Below are positions 8,239 through 17,818 of a stretch of DNA of 64,000 nucleotides, piece after piece. Numbering within the stretch: position 1 is the stretch's first letter; each line of letters begins with the position of its first letter. The position numbers and the translations under genes are program-made. Source of the DNA: Terriglobia bacterium (lineage in GTDB: Bacteria > Acidobacteriota > Terriglobia > Bryobacterales > Bryobacteraceae); the NCBI GenBank assembly GCA_010084195.1, contig RGPS01000003.1, positions 1-64,000 of the forward strand, given 5' to 3'. The notes under the pieces are model-generated. The model was not told the DNA's origin. It worked only from the letters and a program-made list of their open reading frames with translations, and searched no databases.

Positions 8239-9981
8239 CTACCTTTGGTTAGGCAGCAAATCTTCCAGTTCTGAGGCTGCGGAGGCTGCACGCTTCTGGT
8301 ACTGGTCCAGCCGGCTCCGTTCTTCGGCTTCTGCATGTGCTCGCAGGCTGAGGCCTATTTTCCGCTCTTCCTCGCTCATTCGAACAATCCGGAACTCCAG
8401 TTCCTGCCCTGGCGTGAAGGGAACTGCCTCCGACCTGCGGCCCGACCAGCCCGGAACTTCGGAGAAATGGCACAAACCCTCAACCCCATCCGCTAATTCC
8501 ACGAAGGCACCGAAGCCTGTGTGCCTCACTACCTTGCCTCGCACCGCGTCGTTCACGTTGTGCGCCTGAAACCAGGTTTCCCATGCGTCCGGCTGCAGCT
8601 GTTTGACACCCAGCGACAGACGCTTGTTCACGGCGTCAATAGCCAGAATTACCGCCTGGATCATCGAACCCTTCCGCAACATCTCATTCGGATGCTTCAG
8701 GCGTTTTGTCCAGGAGAGATCGGAAACATGGACCAGACCATCAATCCCTTCTTCAATCTCCAGGAAGGCCCCAAATTCGGTCATATTACGGACCCGGCCC
8801 TCCACCACAGAGCCGATCGAATAGCGCTGTTCCACCGTCGTCCACGGATTTGCTTCCAGCTGCTTCAGCCCCAGCGAGATGCGGCGTTCAGTCTTGCTCA
8901 CTTCCAGCACCACCGTCTCCACCGAATCATTCGGCTTCACAACCTTCGACGGGTGCTTCATGCGACGCGACCAGGTCATCTCACTGATATGTATCAGCCC
9001 TTCGATGCCCGGTTCCAGTTCTACAAAGGCTCCGTAGTCGGTAACAGTTACAATCCGGCCTACCACCCGCATTTGTGGCGAGTACCGCTCGGTCACACCT
9101 TCCCATGGGTCGGGGACCAACTGTTTAATGCCCAGCGAGACTCTTTGTTTGGCGGCATCGTACTTGAGCACACGGACGGAAATCTCCTCGCCCGCAGTCA
9201 GGATCTCGGAAGGGTGCGTGACCCGCCCATAAGAAATATCAGTGACATGAAGCAGGCCATCCAGCCCCCCGAGGTCAATAAACGCCCCATAATCCGTCAG
9301 GTTTTTCACAATACCGGTAACAATGGCACCCTCGTGCAAGGCCTCCAGCGTTTGGGCCTTCCGCAAAATGGTATCTTCCTCGATAGCTAGTTTTCGGGAA
9401 ACTACCGCATTGCCACGTTTTCGGTTGAGCTTGATGAGCCGTACCGGCACGTCCTGACTAACGTACTGTTCCGGGTTCCGCGGTGGTCTCACATCGATCT
9501 GGGAACCCGGCATGAACGCAGGCACTCCGATATCCACCGTCAGGCCGCCCTTCACCCGACCTGTTACCCGGCCCGACACGGTGAGGTTTTCGGCAAGCGC
9601 CTTATCCAGTGTGTCCCAAATCCGCAGGCGTGACGCTCGCTCGTGTGAAAGCCGGACATAGCCCTCTGAGGTGTGGCCATCCTCAATAATGACTTCCACG
9701 AGATCGCCGACCGCCACCGTAATGGAACCGTCAGCTTCCCGGAATTGTTCCACCGGGGCTACACCATCGGACTTGTGCCCCACGTCAATGAAGACCTGGG
9801 TTGCAGAGACCTTAAGGACCTTGCCTTCGAGCACCTCGTGCCGTGCGGGAGGCGCAAGGTGGCTATAGTCTTCCAGCAGGTGCTGGTATTCTTCCGGATC
9901 CACAACCTCCGGATCCACAGCTCCCGCATCAAAACCAACTGACGCGGATTCGAGACTCTCAGCCGCTTCGTTATCTGCCAA
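8239..9981 (-). CDS. rpsA: 30S ribosomal protein S1
   Basis: A 580-residue protein with six S1 RNA-binding repeats starting near residues 48, 134, 216, 301, 388 and 475; repeats 3-6 show the sequence DYGAF or EFGAF/GFGAF typical of the OB fold. The first two repeats are degenerate, as is usual for ribosome-docking repeats. S1 helps mRNA bind to the 30S subunit. The start is a TTG at 9981, preceded by AGGGGAGT about 10 bases upstream, which supports the choice. A strong promoter lies about 60 bases upstream. The length agrees with the 550-580 residues of the family. Confidence 0.97.
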   Translation of the reverse strand: MADNEAAESLESASVGFDAGAVDPEVVDPEEYQHLLEDYSHLAPPARHEVLEGKVLKVSATQVFIDVGHKSDGVAPVEQFREADGSITVAVGDLVEVIIEDGHTSEGYVRLSHERASRLRIWDTLDKALAENLTVSGRVTGRVKGGLTVDIGVPAFMPGSQIDVRPPRNPEQYVSQDVPVRLIKLNRKRGNAVVSRKLAIEEDTILRKAQTLEALHEGAIVTGIVKNLTDYGAFIDLGGLDGLLHVTDISYGRVTHPSEILTAGEEISVRVLKYDAAKQRVSLGIKQLVPDPWEGVTERYSPQMRVVGRIVTVTDYGAFVELEPGIEGLIHISEMTWSRRMKHPSKVVKPNDSVETVVLEVSKTERRISLGLKQLEANPWTTVEQRYSIGSVVEGRVRNMTEFGAFLEIEEGIDGLVHVSDLSWTKRLKHPNEMLRKGSMIQAVILAIDAVNKRLSLGVKQLQPDAWETWFQAHNVNDAVRGKVVRHTGFGAFVELADGVEGLCHFSEVPGWSGRRSEAVPFTPGQELEFRIVRMSEEERKIGLSLRAHAEAEERSRLDQYQKRAASAASELEDLLPNQR

Positions 9982-10047
9982 ACCTGTACTCCCCTGGTTC
10001 CTGTTGCACCCGAACTGAGAGTTCAGCTATAGCAGGAGATTCTAACA

Positions 10048-10076
10048 ACTATAGGAAGGGCGTCAGAGATTGTCAA
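10048..10076 (-). promoter_or_regulatory. Sigma70-type promoter of rpsA
   Basis: On the reverse strand TTGACA (10071-10076) and TATAGT (10048-10053) are separated by exactly 17 bases. Transcription would begin near 10041 and leave a 60-base leader before the TTG start of rpsA. This is the closest match to a consensus housekeeping promoter in this part of the window. Confidence 0.75.
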
Positions 10077-10123
10077 ACGGGTACAGGTTTGCGAAGTGTG
10101 GAATGCGTGGGTTACTCGCCAGG

Positions 10124-10615
10124 TTACTCACCTGCGGGCGCGACAGCAAGTGAAGTAATCCGCCCCATAACGTCAGTTACCCGGCCAGGATAGCCCTGAT
10201 TGCGGTTGTAAGCCCGAAGCTTGGCCAAAATGTCTTTGTTGCGGTACGACCGCCCTTCGGCAAGGCTCGAGGCCACTTTATGGATGGCTTCACCAATATT
10301 GGCGAAGTGGGTCTTTCCGTTGGCCCACCCGAAGAGGTTGTTGCCCCGGGCCTGCTTTCCTGCGCCGGTTTCAATCAAAGCGAGGCTGGGTAGTAACCGC
10401 CAGTCCAGGCCATGGGCATCGGCCTCTGCTACAAAGACGCCCGCGAAGTTTTCGACCGGAGAGTGGTTTTCTTTCAGGAAACGGCGAAGAATTGCTTCGC
10501 GGAGATCAAATTTCTTTCGGTTGGATGTTACATTCTGGTCTGCATGCGATGTAGCGGCTGCGATTCCCAGAACTCCTGCTGCGATGACAATGCCTGATTG
10601 AAGTATTCGCTTCAT
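10124..10615 (-). CDS. Secreted glucosaminidase-domain protein
   Basis: A 163-residue protein from the ATG at 10615, which has GGAG about 10 bases upstream and begins a signal peptide (MKRILQSGIVIAAGVLGIAA). The frame stays open to 10777, but that longer form would start upstream of the candidate -10 box and spoils the signal peptide. The mature part has the beta-N-acetylglucosaminidase (LytD/FlgJ-like) fold pattern: LALIETGAGKQARGNNLFGW with the catalytic Glu, and a C-terminal ILAKLRAYNRNQGYP. It probably trims peptidoglycan in the periplasm. Confidence 0.72.
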   Translation of the reverse strand: MKRILQSGIVIAAGVLGIAAATSHADQNVTSNRKKFDLREAILRRFLKENHSPVENFAGVFVAEADAHGLDWRLLPSLALIETGAGKQARGNNLFGWANGKTHFANIGEAIHKVASSLAEGRSYRNKDILAKLRAYNRNQGYPGRVTDVMGRITSLAVAPAGE

Positions 10616-10880
10616 TCGATGTCGTTCTCCTGTGGCTTCGAAGCTTGGAACTTCGGAGTGGGTGGACGGCGCTCGAATCTGTGTCAGGCCGATTTCACGG
10701 TCCTGACGGAGCTGCCGAAGGGGCGATTCAGGTCGGTGTATTACAAGATCATATAGAGCTATTATATCAGCCAGCACCCCGAAAGGGAATTCTGACTGCC
10801 CGTGTCCCTGTTCTCGGCGTTTCCGGCCCTGGAGTTGAGGGCAATTTTAAAGGATTTTATGTCACCCAATTTGAATCGCA
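10616..10880. promoter_or_regulatory. Divergent intergenic region with a -10-like box for the glucosaminidase gene
   Basis: This gap is AT-rich near 10745-10770. On the reverse strand TATAAT (complement of 10761-10766) is a perfect -10 hexamer about 145 bases ahead of the glucosaminidase ATG; the -35 at 17 bases spacing is poor. On the forward strand TTGAGG (10835-10840), 17 bases, TATGTC (10858-10863) is a weak alternative promoter for the bactofilin gene. I see no gene in the gap. Confidence 0.4.
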
Positions 10881-10909
10881 TTGCGCCAGGGCAATGGGCT
10901 GGTTAGACT
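10881..10909 (+). promoter_or_regulatory. Possible promoter placing the bactofilin start codon at the 5' end of the mRNA
   Basis: TTGCGC (10881-10886) and TAGACT (10904-10909) are 17 bases apart. Transcription would start at about 10915-10916, which is the GTG start codon of the bactofilin gene itself. No Shine-Dalgarno sequence precedes that GTG. Both hexamers match only partly, so this is a suggestion. Confidence 0.35.
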
Positions 10910-10915
10910 GAAACA

Positions 10916-11515
10916 GTGAGTCTCTGGAGCAAGAAAGAAGATCCGCCGGCACCGCGGCCTACCGTCGCGCAGCAGCCGCCTGTTTCGTACCAACCACCCG
11001 CCCGTCCGGCTGCACCCCCGGAACCCAAAAAGGAGTCTGTCCCCGTGTCCACAACGCCCTTCCGTAGTCCTGAACCTGACCGCAATTTTATTGGCAAAGC
11101 CGTGCGCGTCGTCGGCCAGATCTTCACCCGTGAAGATCTCTACGTGGATGGCGATGTCGAGGGTACCATTGAGTCCCTGGATACCCGCATCACCATTGGC
11201 ACCAACGGTCGCGTTCAGGCCAGTATCAAGGCCCGCGAAGTTGTCATCCTCGGCCAGATTCAAGGCGATGTTGAGGCAACTGACAAGGTGGATCTTAGAA
11301 AAGACGCCAAGCTGGTGGGGAACATCACCACCGCCCGCATCAGCATTGAAGATGGTGCTGTTTTCAAGGGCAGTATCGACATTCGTAAGTCCGAGCCGAA
11401 AGCGGCCGCGCCTGCCACGCCGGGGCCGGTTGCCCCGTCGGCTCCATCGTCAGCCCCGCCCGCAGCGGTAGCTCCCCCTGTGGGCGGCTTGCCCCCCGGC
11501 GCTGTTCGCCGCTAA
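10916..11515 (+). CDS. Bactofilin-family cytoskeletal protein
   Basis: A 199-residue protein with a central bactofilin (DUF583) right-handed beta-helix at about residues 58-155: FIGKAVRVVGQIFTREDLYV, IKAREVVILGQIQGDVEA, KLVGNITTARISIEDGAVF. It is flanked by proline- and alanine-rich disordered tails, as is normal. Bactofilins polymerise without nucleotide at the membrane and organise cell-wall enzymes, stalks or polysaccharide machinery. It starts with GTG and lies ahead of the E1-E2-ACP operon on the same strand, and opposite a peptidoglycan hydrolase; in other bacteria bactofilins often neighbour M23 peptidases or wall hydrolases. Confidence 0.9.
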   Translation: MSLWSKKEDPPAPRPTVAQQPPVSYQPPARPAAPPEPKKESVPVSTTPFRSPEPDRNFIGKAVRVVGQIFTREDLYVDGDVEGTIESLDTRITIGTNGRVQASIKAREVVILGQIQGDVEATDKVDLRKDAKLVGNITTARISIEDGAVFKGSIDIRKSEPKAAAPATPGPVAPSAPSSAPPAAVAPPVGGLPPGAVRR

Positions 11516-11554: not shown

Positions 11555-12271
11555 ATGGGGGCTACCATGCTAACTGACAAGCTGCGCACGTTGTTTCAAA
11601 GGAACGGCGGGGATCAGTTTGGTGCGCCCAATGTACAGGGCTACCGCACTCAGCTCCCCGGGTCCCTGTCTCGTCACGCTCAGGCCCCGGCTGCACCCGT
11701 TACGCGGGCCAGCCGGGGCGTGGAGCAGTTTTTCTTCAGCCTCCGCGGGACCGTCGGGTTGACCATTCTGGATCTGGCGATACCGAACCAGGACAACATC
11801 ACTCACCTCACGAATATGGGGCACAAACTGTACACCGCGGATCTCATCGGCTCTCTTGATGAAGCCTTCGGGCATGATCCTGATGAACAAACCAATGCGG
11901 GACGGATCGAGTATTTTCTCCGCAGCAGCCTCGACTACCCCGCAGCTACGTTTGATGGTGTTTTGCTCTGGGACAGCCTGCAGTTTATGGGGCCCGCCCT
12001 GTTAACCGCTACCATCGACCGATTGTACGAAGTCATGCGGCCAGATGCCTACCTGCTGGCTTTCGTGACTTCCAACGACAAAGTGACGGATGTCCCGGCA
12101 CACTCCTTCCGGATTATCGACAATAAGAATATCCTGATCACCGAACGTGGTTTACGGGCGTCCGGCCAGGTCTTCAACAACCGAAATATTGAAAAGCTCT
12201 TCGGTAACTTCCAGTCGGTTAAGTTCTTCCTCACCCGGGAGAGCCTGCGCGAAATCATCGTTCGCAGATAA
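11555..12271 (+). CDS. Degenerate methyltransferase-fold protein of unknown role
   Basis: A 238-residue protein. The segment GLTILDLAIPNQDNITHL followed by GHKLYTADLIGSLDE resembles beta-1/loop/beta-2 of class I methyltransferases, and FDGVLLWDSLQFM then LYEVMRPDAYLLAFV resembles beta-4 and beta-5. The glycine-rich SAM loop is missing, so SAM binding may be lost. It lies 39 bases after the bactofilin stop and 33 bases before the E1 gene. I do not recognise a named family; a scaffold or pseudo-enzyme role with the neighbouring bactofilin is possible. Confidence 0.7.
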   Translation: MGATMLTDKLRTLFQRNGGDQFGAPNVQGYRTQLPGSLSRHAQAPAAPVTRASRGVEQFFFSLRGTVGLTILDLAIPNQDNITHLTNMGHKLYTADLIGSLDEAFGHDPDEQTNAGRIEYFLRSSLDYPAATFDGVLLWDSLQFMGPALLTATIDRLYEVMRPDAYLLAFVTSNDKVTDVPAHSFRIIDNKNILITERGLRASGQVFNNRNIEKLFGNFQSVKFFLTRESLREIIVRR

Positions 12272-12304: not shown

Positions 12305-14341
12305 ATGCCAAACAATTGCGACGGCATCGCGATGCCAAACGGAAACGCCCCCACCCCCGAGTTGTTTGCCCGCGACGCCGATGGCAAGCCGCAGCTTGCC
12401 ACAACGGATCTCGATACCTTTCGTTATGGCACGCTCATTCGTGAGGCGGAAGAAGCGTTGTTGCGCCTCTTCGGCGAAGGCCAGCTCTCCGGCACTACAC
12501 ATACCTGCATCGGGCAGGAATTCTGCCAGATGGGGGTCGTCCGGGCGCTGAACCACCCTGACGACATCGTCCTTTCCAACCACCGCAATCACGGGCACTT
12601 TCTTACCTACTCGGGCAATTTCCCCGGCCTGATCGCCGAAATCATGGGCCGCGAGGCCGGTGCCTGCGGGGGCATCGGGGGCAGCCAGCACCTGGCTTAC
12701 CGCGGTTTCCACAGCAACGGCGTGCAGGGTGGAATGACGGCCATTGGGGCGGGCAGGGCACTGGCCCTTCGCAGGCGTGGCTCGGCCGGAATTGTCGCCG
12801 TCATTATTGGCGATGGCACGCTCGGCCAGGGCCTGCTGTACGAAAGCATGAACCTGGCTTCCGTTTGGGATGCTCCGCTCCTCGTCGTGGTGGAGAACAA
12901 CGGCATCGCGCAAACCACTCCAACATCCTGGACTATTGGCGGCACCATCGAAGGCCGAGCCAGGGCCTTTGGCCTCAACTTTCATCGTGTTGATGACGCC
13001 TCCCTGACCTTCTTTCAGGATGTCGATCAAGTGGTCCAAAGCGTCCGCAACTCCGCGCGTCCCGCCATGCTGGTCATCGACACCATGCGTCTGGGACCCC
13101 ATAGCAAAGGCGACGATCTCCGGGACGCAACCGAGCTCGACGCCATTCGCGCACGCGACCCCCTTTCCAGAGCTGGCGACCGCCTCCCGCCCACTGTTGC
13201 TGCCGAAATCCGCAGCCAGGCAAGGAGCTTCATCGACGACGCCTGCCGGGCGGCCGCAGCCTCTCCCCCGGCGAGCCACCTGCACGCCCAAACCTCCATT
13301 TTTGTAGCCCACGAGCCCCCTGCACCGTTAACCAGGGTGCCCACACCCCCAGGGAATGTGCGTAATTCCATCAACACCGCATTGCGCTACCTCCTCGAAA
13401 CCCATGGCGATGTCCTGCTGCTTGGCGAGGATATGCATGAGCCCTACGGCGGGGCCTTCAAGGTAACAGCAAAGCTTAGTTCTGCATTCCCGGGCCGGGT
13501 CATTTCCACGCCTATCAGCGAAGCCGGCGTCGTCGGAGCCGCCATCGGTCTGGCTCTCGCCGGGTATCGCCCAATCGTCGAAATCATGTTCGCAGATTTC
13601 ATTACCCTGGGTTTCGATCAGATTGTGAACCACGCAGTGAAGTTCCCCGGCATGTTCGAGGATTCCCCTGTGCCGCTGGTGATTCGTACGCCCGCCGGGG
13701 GACGACGAGGCTATGGCCCCACTCACAGCCAGAGTCCGGAAAATCTGCTCTGTGGTGTGCCCGGCCTGACAGTGGTCTTTCCCAGCCAACGGCACCAGGC
13801 GGGTGAAATCCTCGCCAATGTTGTGGAGCGATGGCTCTATCCCACTATTTTCCTGGAACACAAACTTCTGTACGGAACGACGGTCGATAGCGCCGGGTAT
13901 GAAGAGTTCCCCGCCTCTCCGCTGGATTCCGGGGCAAAACACTTCCCTTTACTTCGGCGCGGCTCCTTAGAGCCCGATGTCACCATCGTCGCCTACGGAG
14001 GCATGGTGGAAATCGCGGAAGCCGTAGCGGCTCAACTCGAAGCGGAGGAACTGGAAGTAGAACTTGTTCTGCCTGCACTGCTCGCCCCCTTGCCCGGACA
14101 TACCCTCACCAGCCTCCTGCTGTCTCGGGCCCGTGTGGTCGCCATTGAAGAAACCCACTCAGAGTGCGGTTTTGCTGCCGAGCTTGGCTCCGTCCTGCTG
14201 GAAGCGGGCTTTGCCGGTCGGTACGCCAGAGTGGGCACAGCTCCGGTCCCCATCCCCGCCGCCAGAAGTCTGGAAGCGCTGGTGATGCCGGACGCTAAAC
14301 GCGTGATGGATGAAATTCTCCGCCTTTTCGGAAGCGAATAA
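12305..14341 (+). CDS. Fused alpha-beta E1 of a 2-oxoacid dehydrogenase-like complex
   Basis: A 678-residue thiamine-diphosphate enzyme joining E1 alpha (residues about 35-320) and E1 beta (about 350-678). The ThDP/Mg motif runs from GDG (169-171) to NN (198-199). The alpha part shows HRNHGHFL and GGSQH. The beta part has LLLGEDMHEPYGG (Glu375) and GPTHSQSPENLL. Such enzymes decarboxylate pyruvate, branched-chain oxoacids or acetoin and pass the acyl group to the lipoyl arm of E2. A TATAAT hexamer ends 11 bases before the ATG. It is followed after 6 bases by E2. No E3 gene is nearby, so the complex would need lipoamide dehydrogenase from elsewhere, or works non-oxidatively. Confidence 0.9.
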   Translation: MPNNCDGIAMPNGNAPTPELFARDADGKPQLATTDLDTFRYGTLIREAEEALLRLFGEGQLSGTTHTCIGQEFCQMGVVRALNHPDDIVLSNHRNHGHFLTYSGNFPGLIAEIMGREAGACGGIGGSQHLAYRGFHSNGVQGGMTAIGAGRALALRRRGSAGIVAVIIGDGTLGQGLLYESMNLASVWDAPLLVVVENNGIAQTTPTSWTIGGTIEGRARAFGLNFHRVDDASLTFFQDVDQVVQSVRNSARPAMLVIDTMRLGPHSKGDDLRDATELDAIRARDPLSRAGDRLPPTVAAEIRSQARSFIDDACRAAAASPPASHLHAQTSIFVAHEPPAPLTRVPTPPGNVRNSINTALRYLLETHGDVLLLGEDMHEPYGGAFKVTAKLSSAFPGRVISTPISEAGVVGAAIGLALAGYRPIVEIMFADFITLGFDQIVNHAVKFPGMFEDSPVPLVIRTPAGGRRGYGPTHSQSPENLLCGVPGLTVVFPSQRHQAGEILANVVERWLYPTIFLEHKLLYGTTVDSAGYEEFPASPLDSGAKHFPLLRRGSLEPDVTIVAYGGMVEIAEAVAAQLEAEELEVELVLPALLAPLPGHTLTSLLLSRARVVAIEETHSECGFAAELGSVLLEAGFAGRYARVGTAPVPIPAARSLEALVMPDAKRVMDEILRLFGSE

Positions 14342-14347
14342 GCAAAC

Positions 14348-15526
14348 ATGCCTACTCCGGTCTTTACGCCAAGAATCAACAATAACGACGACACAGTTCG
14401 CCTCGCAGCCGTGCTCGTCGAGGTCGGCGCGGCAGTTCGTGCCGGGGACCCCATGATTGATGTCGAAACCGACAAGGCCACGTTTACCGTAGAGGCACCG
14501 GTCGACGGTTTCCTGCTGAAGGTTTTAGGATCTGTCGAAGATACCCTCGATGTCGGCTCTACCCTCGCCTGGCTGGGCGATACCCCTGACGAACCGATCC
14601 CTGGCGCACCGATCCACGGCAAAACCTCCGCCTCCGGCGGGGATATTGACATCTCGGGCGAACCCACCCTCAAAGCGCTCCTGCTCCTCAAGGCTTATGG
14701 CCTCACCTCAGCCGACGTTCCTGCCACGGGATCCCGCCTGGGCGTAGCGGACGTTGAAAAATGGGTGGCCGCCAAAGGTCTCGCCAAGAGCGGCACGACA
14801 CCCGCAGTACCCCCTGCCGCATCAGCCTGGTCTGCCCCCGATGTTCCCGGTATTCTCATCCCCTTCACGCCCGAACAGAAGGGTATGGCCCGAACCGTAG
14901 CCTGGCACCGTGACGAAGCTGCCGCCGGTTACATCGAACTGGCCTGGGACCCCGCACCGTGGGAAGCCTACGCAGCTGACTTCCAGAAGGCCAACGGCCT
15001 GATGATGAATCCGCTCCTGTCGCTCCTCGCCTGGCGGCTTGCCGCCATCGCCAAAGAAAATCCACGACTGAATGCGACCGTAGGTCCCAACCCTATGGCA
15101 CCTAAAGGCGTGTGGCAATATGACCAGGTGAACCTTGGGTTTACCGTGCAGGCTGGCACCAGCCTGTACGTCGCTGTCCTCCGCGACGCGGGTAGCCTTG
15201 CCGAAGCTGATTTTGTCCGTGAATTGGGCGCACTCCAGCGAGCGGCCATGAAACACGCGCTTTCCCCGGAGCAAAGTTCCGGAGCCACTATCGCCTTCAC
15301 CAGCATGGCCCGCTGGAAAGTGACCCGCCACATACCCATCCTGCCCCCAAATACTGGCCTGATTGTCGCCCACACCGCCACCATCAACGGCTCCGCCACC
15401 GTGGGGGCCTCGTATGACCACCGTCTTCTGACAGGCTTCGACGTAGTGCAGGCTCTCCAGTCGCTCGTTCAGCCGCCAGCCTTGGTCCCCCCTGGCCAAC
15501 CCTCCGAAGCCAAAGGAACCCTATGA
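14348..15526 (+). CDS. Lipoyl-bearing E2 acyltransferase with altered HRxxDG motif
   Basis: A 392-residue E2 homologue: one lipoyl domain (residues 1-80, lipoylation lysine Lys43 in ETDKAT), a subunit-binding domain (about 100-140, LKAYGLTSADVPATG), and a CAT-like catalytic domain (about 170-392). The family active site DHRxxDG reads DHRLLTG here: His358 is kept, but the aspartate is Thr362. That aspartate is close to invariant in classical E2s, so acceptor choice or chemistry may differ. Its stop overlaps the start of a dedicated acyl carrier protein by 4 bases (ATGA), which suggests the ACP phosphopantetheine may take the place of CoA as acyl acceptor. That is inference. Confidence 0.88.
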   Translation: MPTPVFTPRINNNDDTVRLAAVLVEVGAAVRAGDPMIDVETDKATFTVEAPVDGFLLKVLGSVEDTLDVGSTLAWLGDTPDEPIPGAPIHGKTSASGGDIDISGEPTLKALLLLKAYGLTSADVPATGSRLGVADVEKWVAAKGLAKSGTTPAVPPAASAWSAPDVPGILIPFTPEQKGMARTVAWHRDEAAAGYIELAWDPAPWEAYAADFQKANGLMMNPLLSLLAWRLAAIAKENPRLNATVGPNPMAPKGVWQYDQVNLGFTVQAGTSLYVAVLRDAGSLAEADFVRELGALQRAAMKHALSPEQSSGATIAFTSMARWKVTRHIPILPPNTGLIVAHTATINGSATVGASYDHRLLTGFDVVQALQSLVQPPALVPPGQPSEAKGTL

Positions 15527-15783
15527 ACCTGATCGTCCAAAGCGCCATCCACACCCGCATCGTCGAGATTGCCAAAAGCCTCGGCAACGACGCCCGGAAC
15601 CTCAAATCCGGCGACGAGATTCCCGCCAGCGGCTTGCTGGATTCCGCCGGGTTGATGGAGCTGATGTTCTGGTTCGAGACCGAATACGACCTCGAAATCC
15701 CGCAGGAAGACCTCACTATTGCCAACTTTGGCACCATCGACGCCATGGTTGACTACCTCGAACGAGCCCGGGCCGGAGCCTGA
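15523..15783 (+). CDS. Dedicated acyl carrier protein
   Basis: An 86-residue acyl carrier protein. The phosphopantetheine site is Ser41 in LLDSAGLMELMF, where housekeeping ACPs have DSLD; the change to DSAG is common among pathway-specific carriers. The rest follows the ACP four-helix pattern (EIPASG, YDLEIPQEDL, FGTIDAMVDYLE). It is sandwiched between E2 (4-base overlap) and the deacetylase-like gene (1-base overlap), so it is clearly part of this operon rather than of fatty-acid synthesis. Confidence 0.88.
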   Translation: MNLIVQSAIHTRIVEIAKSLGNDARNLKSGDEIPASGLLDSAGLMELMFWFETEYDLEIPQEDLTIANFGTIDAMVDYLERARAGA

Positions 15784-16712
15784 TGCCTTCCGTGCAGTGG
15801 CCCGAAGGCAAGCGCTTTGCCTTCACCGTGTTCGATGATCCCGATTCCCAGCCCGTCGCCGAAAGCCGCCTCATCTATGGCATGCTTGGCGACCTCGGTT
15901 TCCGCACCACCATGGGGGTCTGGCCCGCCGGACCGTTTCGCGAGGGCAACTCCCGCAGCGATTCCTGTCTGAACCCGGCCTACCTCGAACACGCACTCGC
16001 CACTCAGGCTCGCGGCTTTGAAATTGGCTATCACGGCAACGCTCTGCGCACCTCCCCTCGCGAGGAGACTGCCGGCGGCCTCGAAGCGTTTCGTGCCTTC
16101 TTCGGCCAATACCCAGCTGCCATGGCGAATCATTACGGCAATGCAGAGGCCATCTATTGGGGCCCCTCCCGCCTCTCCGGCCTTCCAAAGCTGATCTACC
16201 GAGCGGTCACCGGCAGCAAACGCGCCAACCAGTTCTTTGGCGAAGTCGAAGGTCACCCGTACTTCTGGGGCGACCTCTGCCAGGCCCGCATCCAGTACTG
16301 CCGGAACTTTGTCTTCAAAGAGATCAACACGCTGGCCCGGTGCCCCATGATGCCGTATCACGACCCCGCCCGCCCCTTCGTGCGCCAGTGGTATGCAGGC
16401 TCAGAAGGTGCCGACGCCGGCAAGTTTCTCAACACCATCTCCGAGGCAAATCAGGATCAGCTCGAAGCCGAAGGCGGGGCGTGCATCATGTACACACACT
16501 TTGGCAAAGGTTTCGTGGAGAATGGCCAGATCACCCCTCGCTTTCGGGAACTCATGACCCGGTTGGCGAAGAAGGGTGGCTGGTACGTTCCGGTCACCGA
16601 GCTCCTCAACCATATCCGCGCCGGTCGAGGCGAGCATACCCTGACCGATCAGGAGCGCAGTCAACTCGAGTGGCGCTGGTTGCTTCAAAAGTTGGCGGGA
16701 GGCACCTCCTGA
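15783..16712 (+). CDS. Polysaccharide-deacetylase-like protein
   Basis: A 309-residue protein of the NodB-like TIM-barrel class. Motif 1 reads FTVFDDPD (Asp18, Asp19) instead of TFDDGP, and motif 2 reads EIGYHGN instead of a two-histidine HxxxH; a later MYTHFGKGF resembles motif 5. With only one clear metal-binding histidine in motif 2 the enzyme is atypical and may use another ligand or another reaction. In the operon it could free an amino group on a sugar for acylation by the next gene product. The start overlaps the ACP stop (TGATG), as does its stop with the GNAT start. Confidence 0.7.
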   Translation: MPSVQWPEGKRFAFTVFDDPDSQPVAESRLIYGMLGDLGFRTTMGVWPAGPFREGNSRSDSCLNPAYLEHALATQARGFEIGYHGNALRTSPREETAGGLEAFRAFFGQYPAAMANHYGNAEAIYWGPSRLSGLPKLIYRAVTGSKRANQFFGEVEGHPYFWGDLCQARIQYCRNFVFKEINTLARCPMMPYHDPARPFVRQWYAGSEGADAGKFLNTISEANQDQLEAEGGACIMYTHFGKGFVENGQITPRFRELMTRLAKKGGWYVPVTELLNHIRAGRGEHTLTDQERSQLEWRWLLQKLAGGTS

Positions 16713-17818
16713 TGGCTATCTCAATCCGTCCCTATGCCGATGGCGATATTCCAGCGGCCAAAGCGTTTAACGAACGGATGCTGAGTGGCAACGCCCCGAG
16801 CGAGTTCATGCTCCCCGAGGCCATGCCACGACCCCTTTCGGAGCTTGCCGAGCCCCTGATTACGAGTACCTATTTCCTGGCCGGCGATGGCGAATTCGTT
16901 CGGGGTGGCTTCGTTCTTACTGATTACCCGGCTTCGCTTGCCGGAGAAAAGGTGAACGCCACCGATCTGATCGCTCCCCTTTCGGAAGGCATCATTGACC
17001 CCGCCTTCGGCATGACGGGCATGCAGTACATCAAGTATCTGCAGAAGTACACCAAATACGGCATGGCTGTAGGTATGGGAAACGTCAATAATCCCTTTCC
17101 CCGTTTATTGAAAGCCGCGGGCTGGAATGTGATGAGCGTGCCATTTTTCTTCCACGTCGTCCGCGCCGGGCGGTTTTTTAGCCAGATGCGAGTCTTCGAA
17201 GGCAGTATGGCAAAGAAACTGGTGGCAGGAATCGCCGGTCCCACCGGTCTGGGAGCTCTGGGTGTGGCCGCTCTTCAGTACCGCAAATGGACGGCAGGAG
17301 CGGTGTTGGACGTCGCCGATCCCGGTGAATGGGGCGCGTGGGCCGATGAGATCTGGCGTCGCTTTCTTCCCCACTGCTCATTCGCCATCACTCGCGACGC
17401 CGCAGCCCTGCGGGAATTCCACCCTCCCGCCGACAAGCGCATGGTTCGGCTGGTTTTGAAGCGCGCCGGGAAACCCGTCGGCTGGGCAGCGGCGCTGCTC
17501 ACCCAGATGCACGATGACAAATATTTTGGGAACCTGAAAGTTGCCACCATTATGGACTGTGTTGCCGCCGTGGAGGATCTTCCTGCCGCTATTGTGGCTT
17601 CCACAAACGATCTTGGCCGCCGCGGTGCCGATCTCGTCATCACCAATCAGACCCATTCCCTGTCCCAGAATGCTTTCCGTGGTGCCGGCTACCTGTCTGG
17701 GCCCTCGAACTACTGTCTGGGAGTTTCGAAGACAATCGCCGAAGTTGTAAAGGCCGCAGGGGGCGACGGAACCATCTACGTTACCCGCGCCGACGGCGAC
17801 GGGCGAATGCACCTGTAG
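16712..17818 (+). CDS. Large GNAT/FemAB-like acyltransferase
   Basis: A 368-residue protein starting at the ATG that overlaps the previous stop (TGATG); the frame is open further upstream, but that part is a shadow of the deacetylase gene. It appears to hold two GNAT-like halves: residues about 1-150 (RPYADGDIPAAKAFNE, GMGNVNNPFPRLLKAAGW) and about 230-350 (RMVRLVLKRAGKPVGWAAAL, IVASTNDLGRRGADLVITNQ). Similar proteins occur in polysaccharide clusters. It is the last gene of the E1-E2-ACP operon and the natural candidate for transferring the acyl group made upstream. Specific substrate unknown. Confidence 0.75.
   Translation: MAISIRPYADGDIPAAKAFNERMLSGNAPSEFMLPEAMPRPLSELAEPLITSTYFLAGDGEFVRGGFVLTDYPASLAGEKVNATDLIAPLSEGIIDPAFGMTGMQYIKYLQKYTKYGMAVGMGNVNNPFPRLLKAAGWNVMSVPFFFHVVRAGRFFSQMRVFEGSMAKKLVAGIAGPTGLGALGVAALQYRKWTAGAVLDVADPGEWGAWADEIWRRFLPHCSFAITRDAAALREFHPPADKRMVRLVLKRAGKPVGWAAALLTQMHDDKYFGNLKVATIMDCVAAVEDLPAAIVASTNDLGRRGADLVITNQTHSLSQNAFRGAGYLSGPSNYCLGVSKTIAEVVKAAGGDGTIYVTRADGDGRMHL

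Follow-up and report, generated by a model that had tools for sequence, protein, structure and literature searches.

Organization of the locus

The window, the whole 64,000-nucleotide stretch of contig RGPS01000003.1 analysed here, contains five open reading frames on the forward strand that are joined by spacings of 6, -4, -1 and -1 bases. These genes, and the frame that directly precedes them, are as follows.

11555-12271, +: protein without family assignment, bearing a trace of methyltransferase similarity; directly 5' of the E1 gene
12305..14341, +: fused E1 alpha-beta, 678 aa (Pfam, tree, motifs)
14348..15526, +: E2, 392 aa, with a lipoyl domain (ETDKA) and an acyltransferase domain (Pfam, motif comparison)
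15523..15783, +: acyl carrier protein (ACP), 86 aa, phosphopantetheine Ser within LDSAGL (PF00550, alignment)
15783..16712, +: CE4/NodB-fold protein, 309 aa, the constant member of the set (31-homologue alignment, AlphaFold model, fold search)
16712..17818, +: tandem-GNAT acyltransferase, 368 aa, its constant partner, without a Pfam family (alignment, AlphaFold model, fold search)

The order and spacings agree with those of an earlier note on this DNA, which had named the products a fused E1, a lipoyl E2, an ACP, a NodB-like protein and a GNAT. The first three names are borne out by Pfam matches, of the E1 to PF00676 (E1_dh), PF02779 (Transket_pyr) and PF02780 (Transketolase_C), of the E2 to PF00364 (Biotin_lipoyl) and PF00198 (2-oxoacid_dh), and of the ACP to PF00550 (PP-binding), while the last two hold because the predicted structures display a CE4/NodB fold and a tandem GNAT. 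Upstream of the operon lie a bactofilin gene and the unassigned frame listed above, which was rejected as a sixth operon member since none of the related loci tested encodes a homologue. Downstream are FGGY and ROK kinase genes, and neither these nor the bactofilin resembles a member of the set.

The same note held that no E3 is present, which is true of the operon and not of the genome, as lpd is found on another contig; with this enzyme encoded in trans, the missing E3 is no anomaly. Carrier proteins need a phosphopantetheinyl transferase (PPTase), and no PPTase family match was found in the window genome (a 94%-complete assembly), where the enzyme is probably missing or divergent.

The E1 and E2 components

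The E1 of the window bears the motifs GTTHTC, HSKGDD and GGRRGYGPTHSQ, in keeping with the GT(T/V)HT, HSK(G/S)DD and RGYGxTHSQ motifs common to the cassette E1s, RenH and other NRPS-linked E1s; the His residues of the latter two motifs are taken to be catalytic, as in E1 enzymes generally. A search of plasmid-borne proteins returned as top matches RenH, from the renieramycin symbiont (E 2e-98, 338 bits, 91% of the E1 covered), and proteins of Streptomyces loci, compared to about 150-220 bits for ordinary pyruvate dehydrogenase (PDH) or acetoin E1s, and the protein scores far under the NCBIfam PDH cut-offs. One of the Streptomyces relatives is encoded in an ACP-E1a-E1b-E2 block adjoining NRPS genes. 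The corresponding search with the E2 gave weak matches, one of which pointed to the S. cattleyicolor locus. A tree built from the concatenated alpha and beta parts of the cassette E1s, RenH, the S. cattleyicolor and NBC_01136 proteins, and nine PDH/acetoin-type controls places the cassette E1s together with RenH and the Streptomyces NRPS-linked E1s, apart from the controls, with 100/100 support. The enzyme is thus probably, on the strength of its sequence, a two-component transketolase of the NRPS-linked type that loads glycolyl groups onto ACPs and not of the PDH/acetoin type, a class assignment that is anchored by RenH and by Streptomyces loci without assigned products rather than by the validated QncN/QncL/NapB/NapD sequences.

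The E2 is altered in a corresponding set of proteins. Where the HxxxDG motif is expected, the window enzyme has HRLLTG, and its subunit-binding region is degenerate. The Asp is replaced in every one of the ten ACP-linked E2s compared and retained in all four ordinary E2s, while the lipoyl Lys is retained in each of the ten. An ordinary PDH-type complex is rejected in view of the E1 tree, the E2 motif and the presence of the ACP. The earlier proposal that the acyl group is made from a 2-oxoacid is likewise probably wrong, given an E1 that falls in the NRPS-linked clade with motifs of its own and an E2 without the HxxxDG Asp.

The published systems nearest to this arrangement are those that load glycolyl groups. 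QncN/QncL/QncM and SclQ1-4 convert a ketose phosphate to a glycolyl group on an ACP (PMC6335953), and NapB/NapD and DinU/DinS load glycolyl-ACP likewise (PMC7570522). An E1 module, a lipoyl/acyltransferase module and a stand-alone ACP are encoded together in the window as in the Qnc/Scl architecture; the Qnc, Nap and Scl loaders (and, by sequence, RenH/RenI) share with it the E1 alpha and beta modules, the joined lipoyl and acyltransferase module and the separate ACP, and RenH/RenI and their Streptomyces relatives also share the E1 clade and motifs and the E2 without the HxxxDG Asp. QncN-QncL-QncM, NapB-NapD-NapC and SclQ1-4 feed NRPS assembly lines, however, whereas here the loader is accompanied by a CE4-fold protein and a tandem GNAT and, in a relative, lies in an exopolysaccharide (EPS) cluster. 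It is because of the E1 clade and motifs, the loss of the E2 Asp and the published Qnc/Scl/Nap loading that glycolyl is favoured as the loaded acyl group, which would give glycolyl-ACP and, ultimately, an N-glycolyl sugar.

The CE4-fold protein and the tandem GNAT

Neither of the last two proteins has a Pfam or NCBIfam match. The AlphaFold model of the NodB-like protein (pLDDT 93) nevertheless displays a CE4/NodB fold, matched by Foldseek with probability 1.00 to a polysaccharide deacetylase (3rxz), PuuE, ArnD and PdaC. The window protein has no gathering match to PF01522, and weak DUF2334 matches are seen in 11 of its 31 homologues. Across the alignment of these 31 homologues, Asp18, Asp21, His84, His117 and His239 are invariant and Asp19 nearly so, but the usual second metal-binding His (the +4 position of H-x3-H) is not conserved; the invariant His117 may stand in for it. 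ArnD deacylates a lipid-linked amino sugar. The Salmonella enzyme (8t0j) shares the CE4 fold with the window protein, yet the two are only 12% identical and differ in the conservation of the second metal His.

The fifth protein was modelled with a pLDDT of 90 as a tandem GNAT, and the fold search returned NMT, Eis-like proteins and the clavulanate tandem GNAT with probability 1.00. None of 18 homologues matches Pfam at E<=0.1.

Distribution of the cassette and its acyl loaders

The CE4-fold protein is patchily distributed, as full-length homologues (about 50% identity) are present in just 4 of 60 relatives, one of which (L007, identical to L016) has the whole operon. Within the class, 14 of 299 genomes have a match, and a profile scan of one genome per species, with phyla assigned by record title, extended the family to Acidobacteria, Verrucomicrobia, Planctomycetes, Bacteroidota, Pseudomonadota, Deinococcota, Chloroflexi, Neomarinimicrobiota, Myxococcota and Gemmatimonadota. 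The five-gene order, which the earlier note had suggested seeking in other Acidobacteria and other phyla, does recur: all five components occur together in seven loci of Acidobacteria and Verrucomicrobia, namely the window, L013, L014, L016, L107, L029 (Chthoniobacter flavus) and L038 (Verrucomicrobia). In L013 the GNAT gene is divergent and upstream, and in L029 and L038 the E1 is split into two genes. The operon order is repeated in other Acidobacteria at E1/E2 protein identities of 50-66% and is therefore not due to chance. No paper describing the five-gene set was found among the open-access papers searched.

Among 33 CE4 loci, the window included, 17 contain an acyl loader belonging to one of three unrelated kinds: E1/E2 (6), FkbH (6), or an AMP-ligase with LuxE and LuxC (4), with FkbH and the AMP-ligase set both present in one more. 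About half of the loci have no visible loader, many of these lying on short contigs. FkbH provides a glyceryl group, a short hydroxyacyl; its identity was confirmed by TIGR01686 above cut-off in the two loci checked, while in the window genome FkbH gave no match in a search whose control was equally silent. In L008, LuxE, LuxC and the AMP-binding protein are recognised by Pfam. ACPs with a DS motif accompany all three kinds of loader. In a planctomycete locus (L022:4416-8700), the CE4 and GNAT genes are joined by those for FkbH, AMP-ligase, LuxE, LuxC and a pair of ACPs. The GNAT gene adjoins the CE4 gene in most loci and is substituted in four by another GNAT family, one member of which matches PF13480. 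What stays constant is thus the pair of CE4-fold protein and GNAT, in most cases accompanied by an ACP, and the means of charging the ACP is what varies.

Glycan context and a second architecture

The earlier note had advised looking for glycosyltransferases (GTs) nearby. None adjoins the operon in the window, the sugar-phosphate transferases of this genome being encoded elsewhere, but they do occur beside homologues. In the cultured C. flavus (L029), the cassette lies inside an EPS cluster, between Wzy_C/GT2/GT4 genes and an EPS polyprenyl glycosylphosphotransferase gene. A DegT sugar aminotransferase is encoded near the CE4 gene in eight loci, mostly with a bacterial sugar transferase (Bac_transf) and GTs, and three of the eight also have a GDP-mannose 4,6-dehydratase-like gene. 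With DegT, sugar transferase and GT genes beside the homologues and an EPS cluster around the C. flavus cassette, the gene context supports the view that the acyl group is accepted by an amino sugar in a surface glycan.

When 299 genomes were scanned for the E1 motif, seven had such an E1. Three contain the full cassette (the window genome, G018 and G071), and L104, in a fourth, probably represents another copy, on a contig that ends within the E2. The remaining three present a different gene setting.

L106:3644-12434: E1, E2, PPTase, hexapeptide acyltransferase, GT2 and Wzx-like flippase genes
L105:3160-9390: E1, E2 and PPTase genes
L103:5636-7270, -: lipoyl domain fused to a hexapeptide acyltransferase, adjoining a same-clade E1 and near a GT-like gene

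Their E1s cluster with RenH (support 99.8/100), and the E2s of L106 and L105 have HQLSEG and HQLAEG, respectively, in place of HRxxDG. The fusion in L103 suggests direct transfer of the acyl group from lipoyl to sugar. That the same kind of E1 is linked to sugar acyltransferases in this second form strengthens the general proposal.

A proposed route to N-acylated surface glycans

Taken as a whole, it is rather probable that the operon makes an acyl-ACP with which a surface polysaccharide is N-acylated on an amino sugar, probably while still lipid-linked, the acyl group being glycolyl drawn from a ketose phosphate. The E1 would take up a two-carbon unit as a ThDP adduct, a ketose phosphate (xylulose-5-phosphate, for example) being the likeliest donor, and move it oxidatively to the lipoyl arm of the E2 to form glycolyl-dihydrolipoyl-E2. 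The E2 would hand this group on to the ACP of the operon, at its phosphopantetheine, and not to CoA, and the general E3 of the genome would re-oxidise the lipoyl arm of the E2. The CE4-fold protein would act much as ArnD does, freeing or trimming the amine that serves as acceptor, and the tandem GNAT would move the acyl group from the ACP onto this amine. The core of the earlier proposal, that a surface glycan is acylated by way of an ACP, is supported by the ACP beside every type of loader, the EPS cluster around the C. flavus cassette, the genes for amino-sugar formation and sugar-phosphate transfer beside the homologues, and conservation across phyla.

Its choice of precedent fares less well. 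Tetronate E2-like acyltransferases (Agg4/QmnD3 type) are E2-type acyltransferases of an ACP pathway which, to our knowledge, act in tetronate formation and not as part of an E1/E2 loader of the ACP. The Nap, Qnc and Scl systems and the pepteridine pathway (plu2792-2799; PMC5384830) are better ones. In the latter, an E1 and an E2-like protein prime a carrier, the acyl group then passes to a free amine and the cell supplies the E3, all as proposed here; unlike the window operon, its E2 is fused to the carrier and a condensation domain, its substrates are 2-oxoacids and its acceptor is a pterin. A third point of comparison is provided by RfbK/RfbL of Vibrio cholerae O1, which activate the acyl group of perosamine, 2,4-dihydroxybutanoyl (PMC12208996). 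Here too the acyl group is activated, with proposed carriage on a dedicated carrier, RfbK, in an O-antigen cluster, and related CE4 loci have AMP-ligase, LuxC-type reductase, DegT and GDP-mannose dehydratase genes, but the system is without E1/E2 and its acyl group is different.

The same ACP-to-sugar route might instead be fed by a 2-oxoacid (pyruvate, 2-oxobutyrate or a branched one). The E1 and E2 are by Pfam homologues of 2-oxoacid dehydrogenases, and E1/E2-to-carrier loading in pepteridine biosynthesis takes pyruvate and 2-oxobutyrate (PMC5384830). The separation of the E1 from the nine PDH/acetoin-type controls at 100%, and the active-site motifs it has in common with RenH and the NRPS-linked E1s, speak for a different donor. 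So does the alternative loader FkbH, which likewise supplies a short hydroxyacyl (glyceryl) group, and a 2-oxoacid source seems unlikely, if still the most plausible of the alternatives.

Less probable again is a small secreted metabolite of the scleric acid or pepteridine kind, for which the GNAT would pass the acyl group from the ACP to a small amine. It would accord with the closest annotated E1 relatives being in NRPS clusters and with the absence of glycan genes next to the window operon; against this, no NRPS or PKS genes were recognised beside the cassette among the classified neighbours, EPS clusters that include sugar-phosphate transferase, DegT and GT genes surround homologues, and enzymes acting on glycans are where a CE4 fold is typically found. 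Least credible is a catabolic or housekeeping complex in which the E2 acylates CoA, the ACP is incidental and the neighbours are unrelated. General E1/E2 homology would permit it, but the cassettes have a dedicated ACP between the E2 and CE4 genes, the E2 has lost the HxxxDG Asp, and the order with the CE4 and GNAT genes is kept across phyla.

Implications

The N-glycolylation of a surface glycan through the ACP may be one version of a wider scheme. The evidence is evenly poised on whether many phyla have a modular kit for coat acylation, in which a CE4-fold and tandem-GNAT pair and a dedicated ACP would be served by swappable loaders: E1/E2 for glycolyl from a ketose phosphate, FkbH for a glyceryl-type group, and AMP-ligase/LuxE/LuxC for another acyl group. 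In its E1/E2 version the kit would then provide N-glycolyl sugars by a new route, which the fused relative would shorten to a direct step from lipoyl to sugar. The system is best described as the combination of glycolyl-ACP loading of the NRPS type with ACP-borne acylation of surface glycans, by a constant enzyme pair that is undescribed and loaders that are swappable.

If true, acyl loading known from secondary metabolism, glycolyl-ACP from sugar phosphates, would be linked to surface polysaccharides, and the E1/E2 version would draw N-glycolyl groups from central sugar phosphates. Two widespread, uncharacterised protein families, the CE4-fold and the tandem-GNAT proteins, would gain a testable job, and N-acyl variation of bacterial coats would be explained by the swap of one module. 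Coats of Acidobacteria, and that of C. flavus, would be predicted to contain N-glycolyl sugars.

Two features of individual loci are also recorded here. The GNAT gene of an FkbH-type locus from a metagenome assembly (L009:10212-11300, -) is interrupted by an in-frame stop some 80 codons in. In two Bacteroidota loci (L028 and L032, around 9050-10930), the CE4-fold gene lies directly 3' of a gene from a second, ordinary family of polysaccharide deacetylases.
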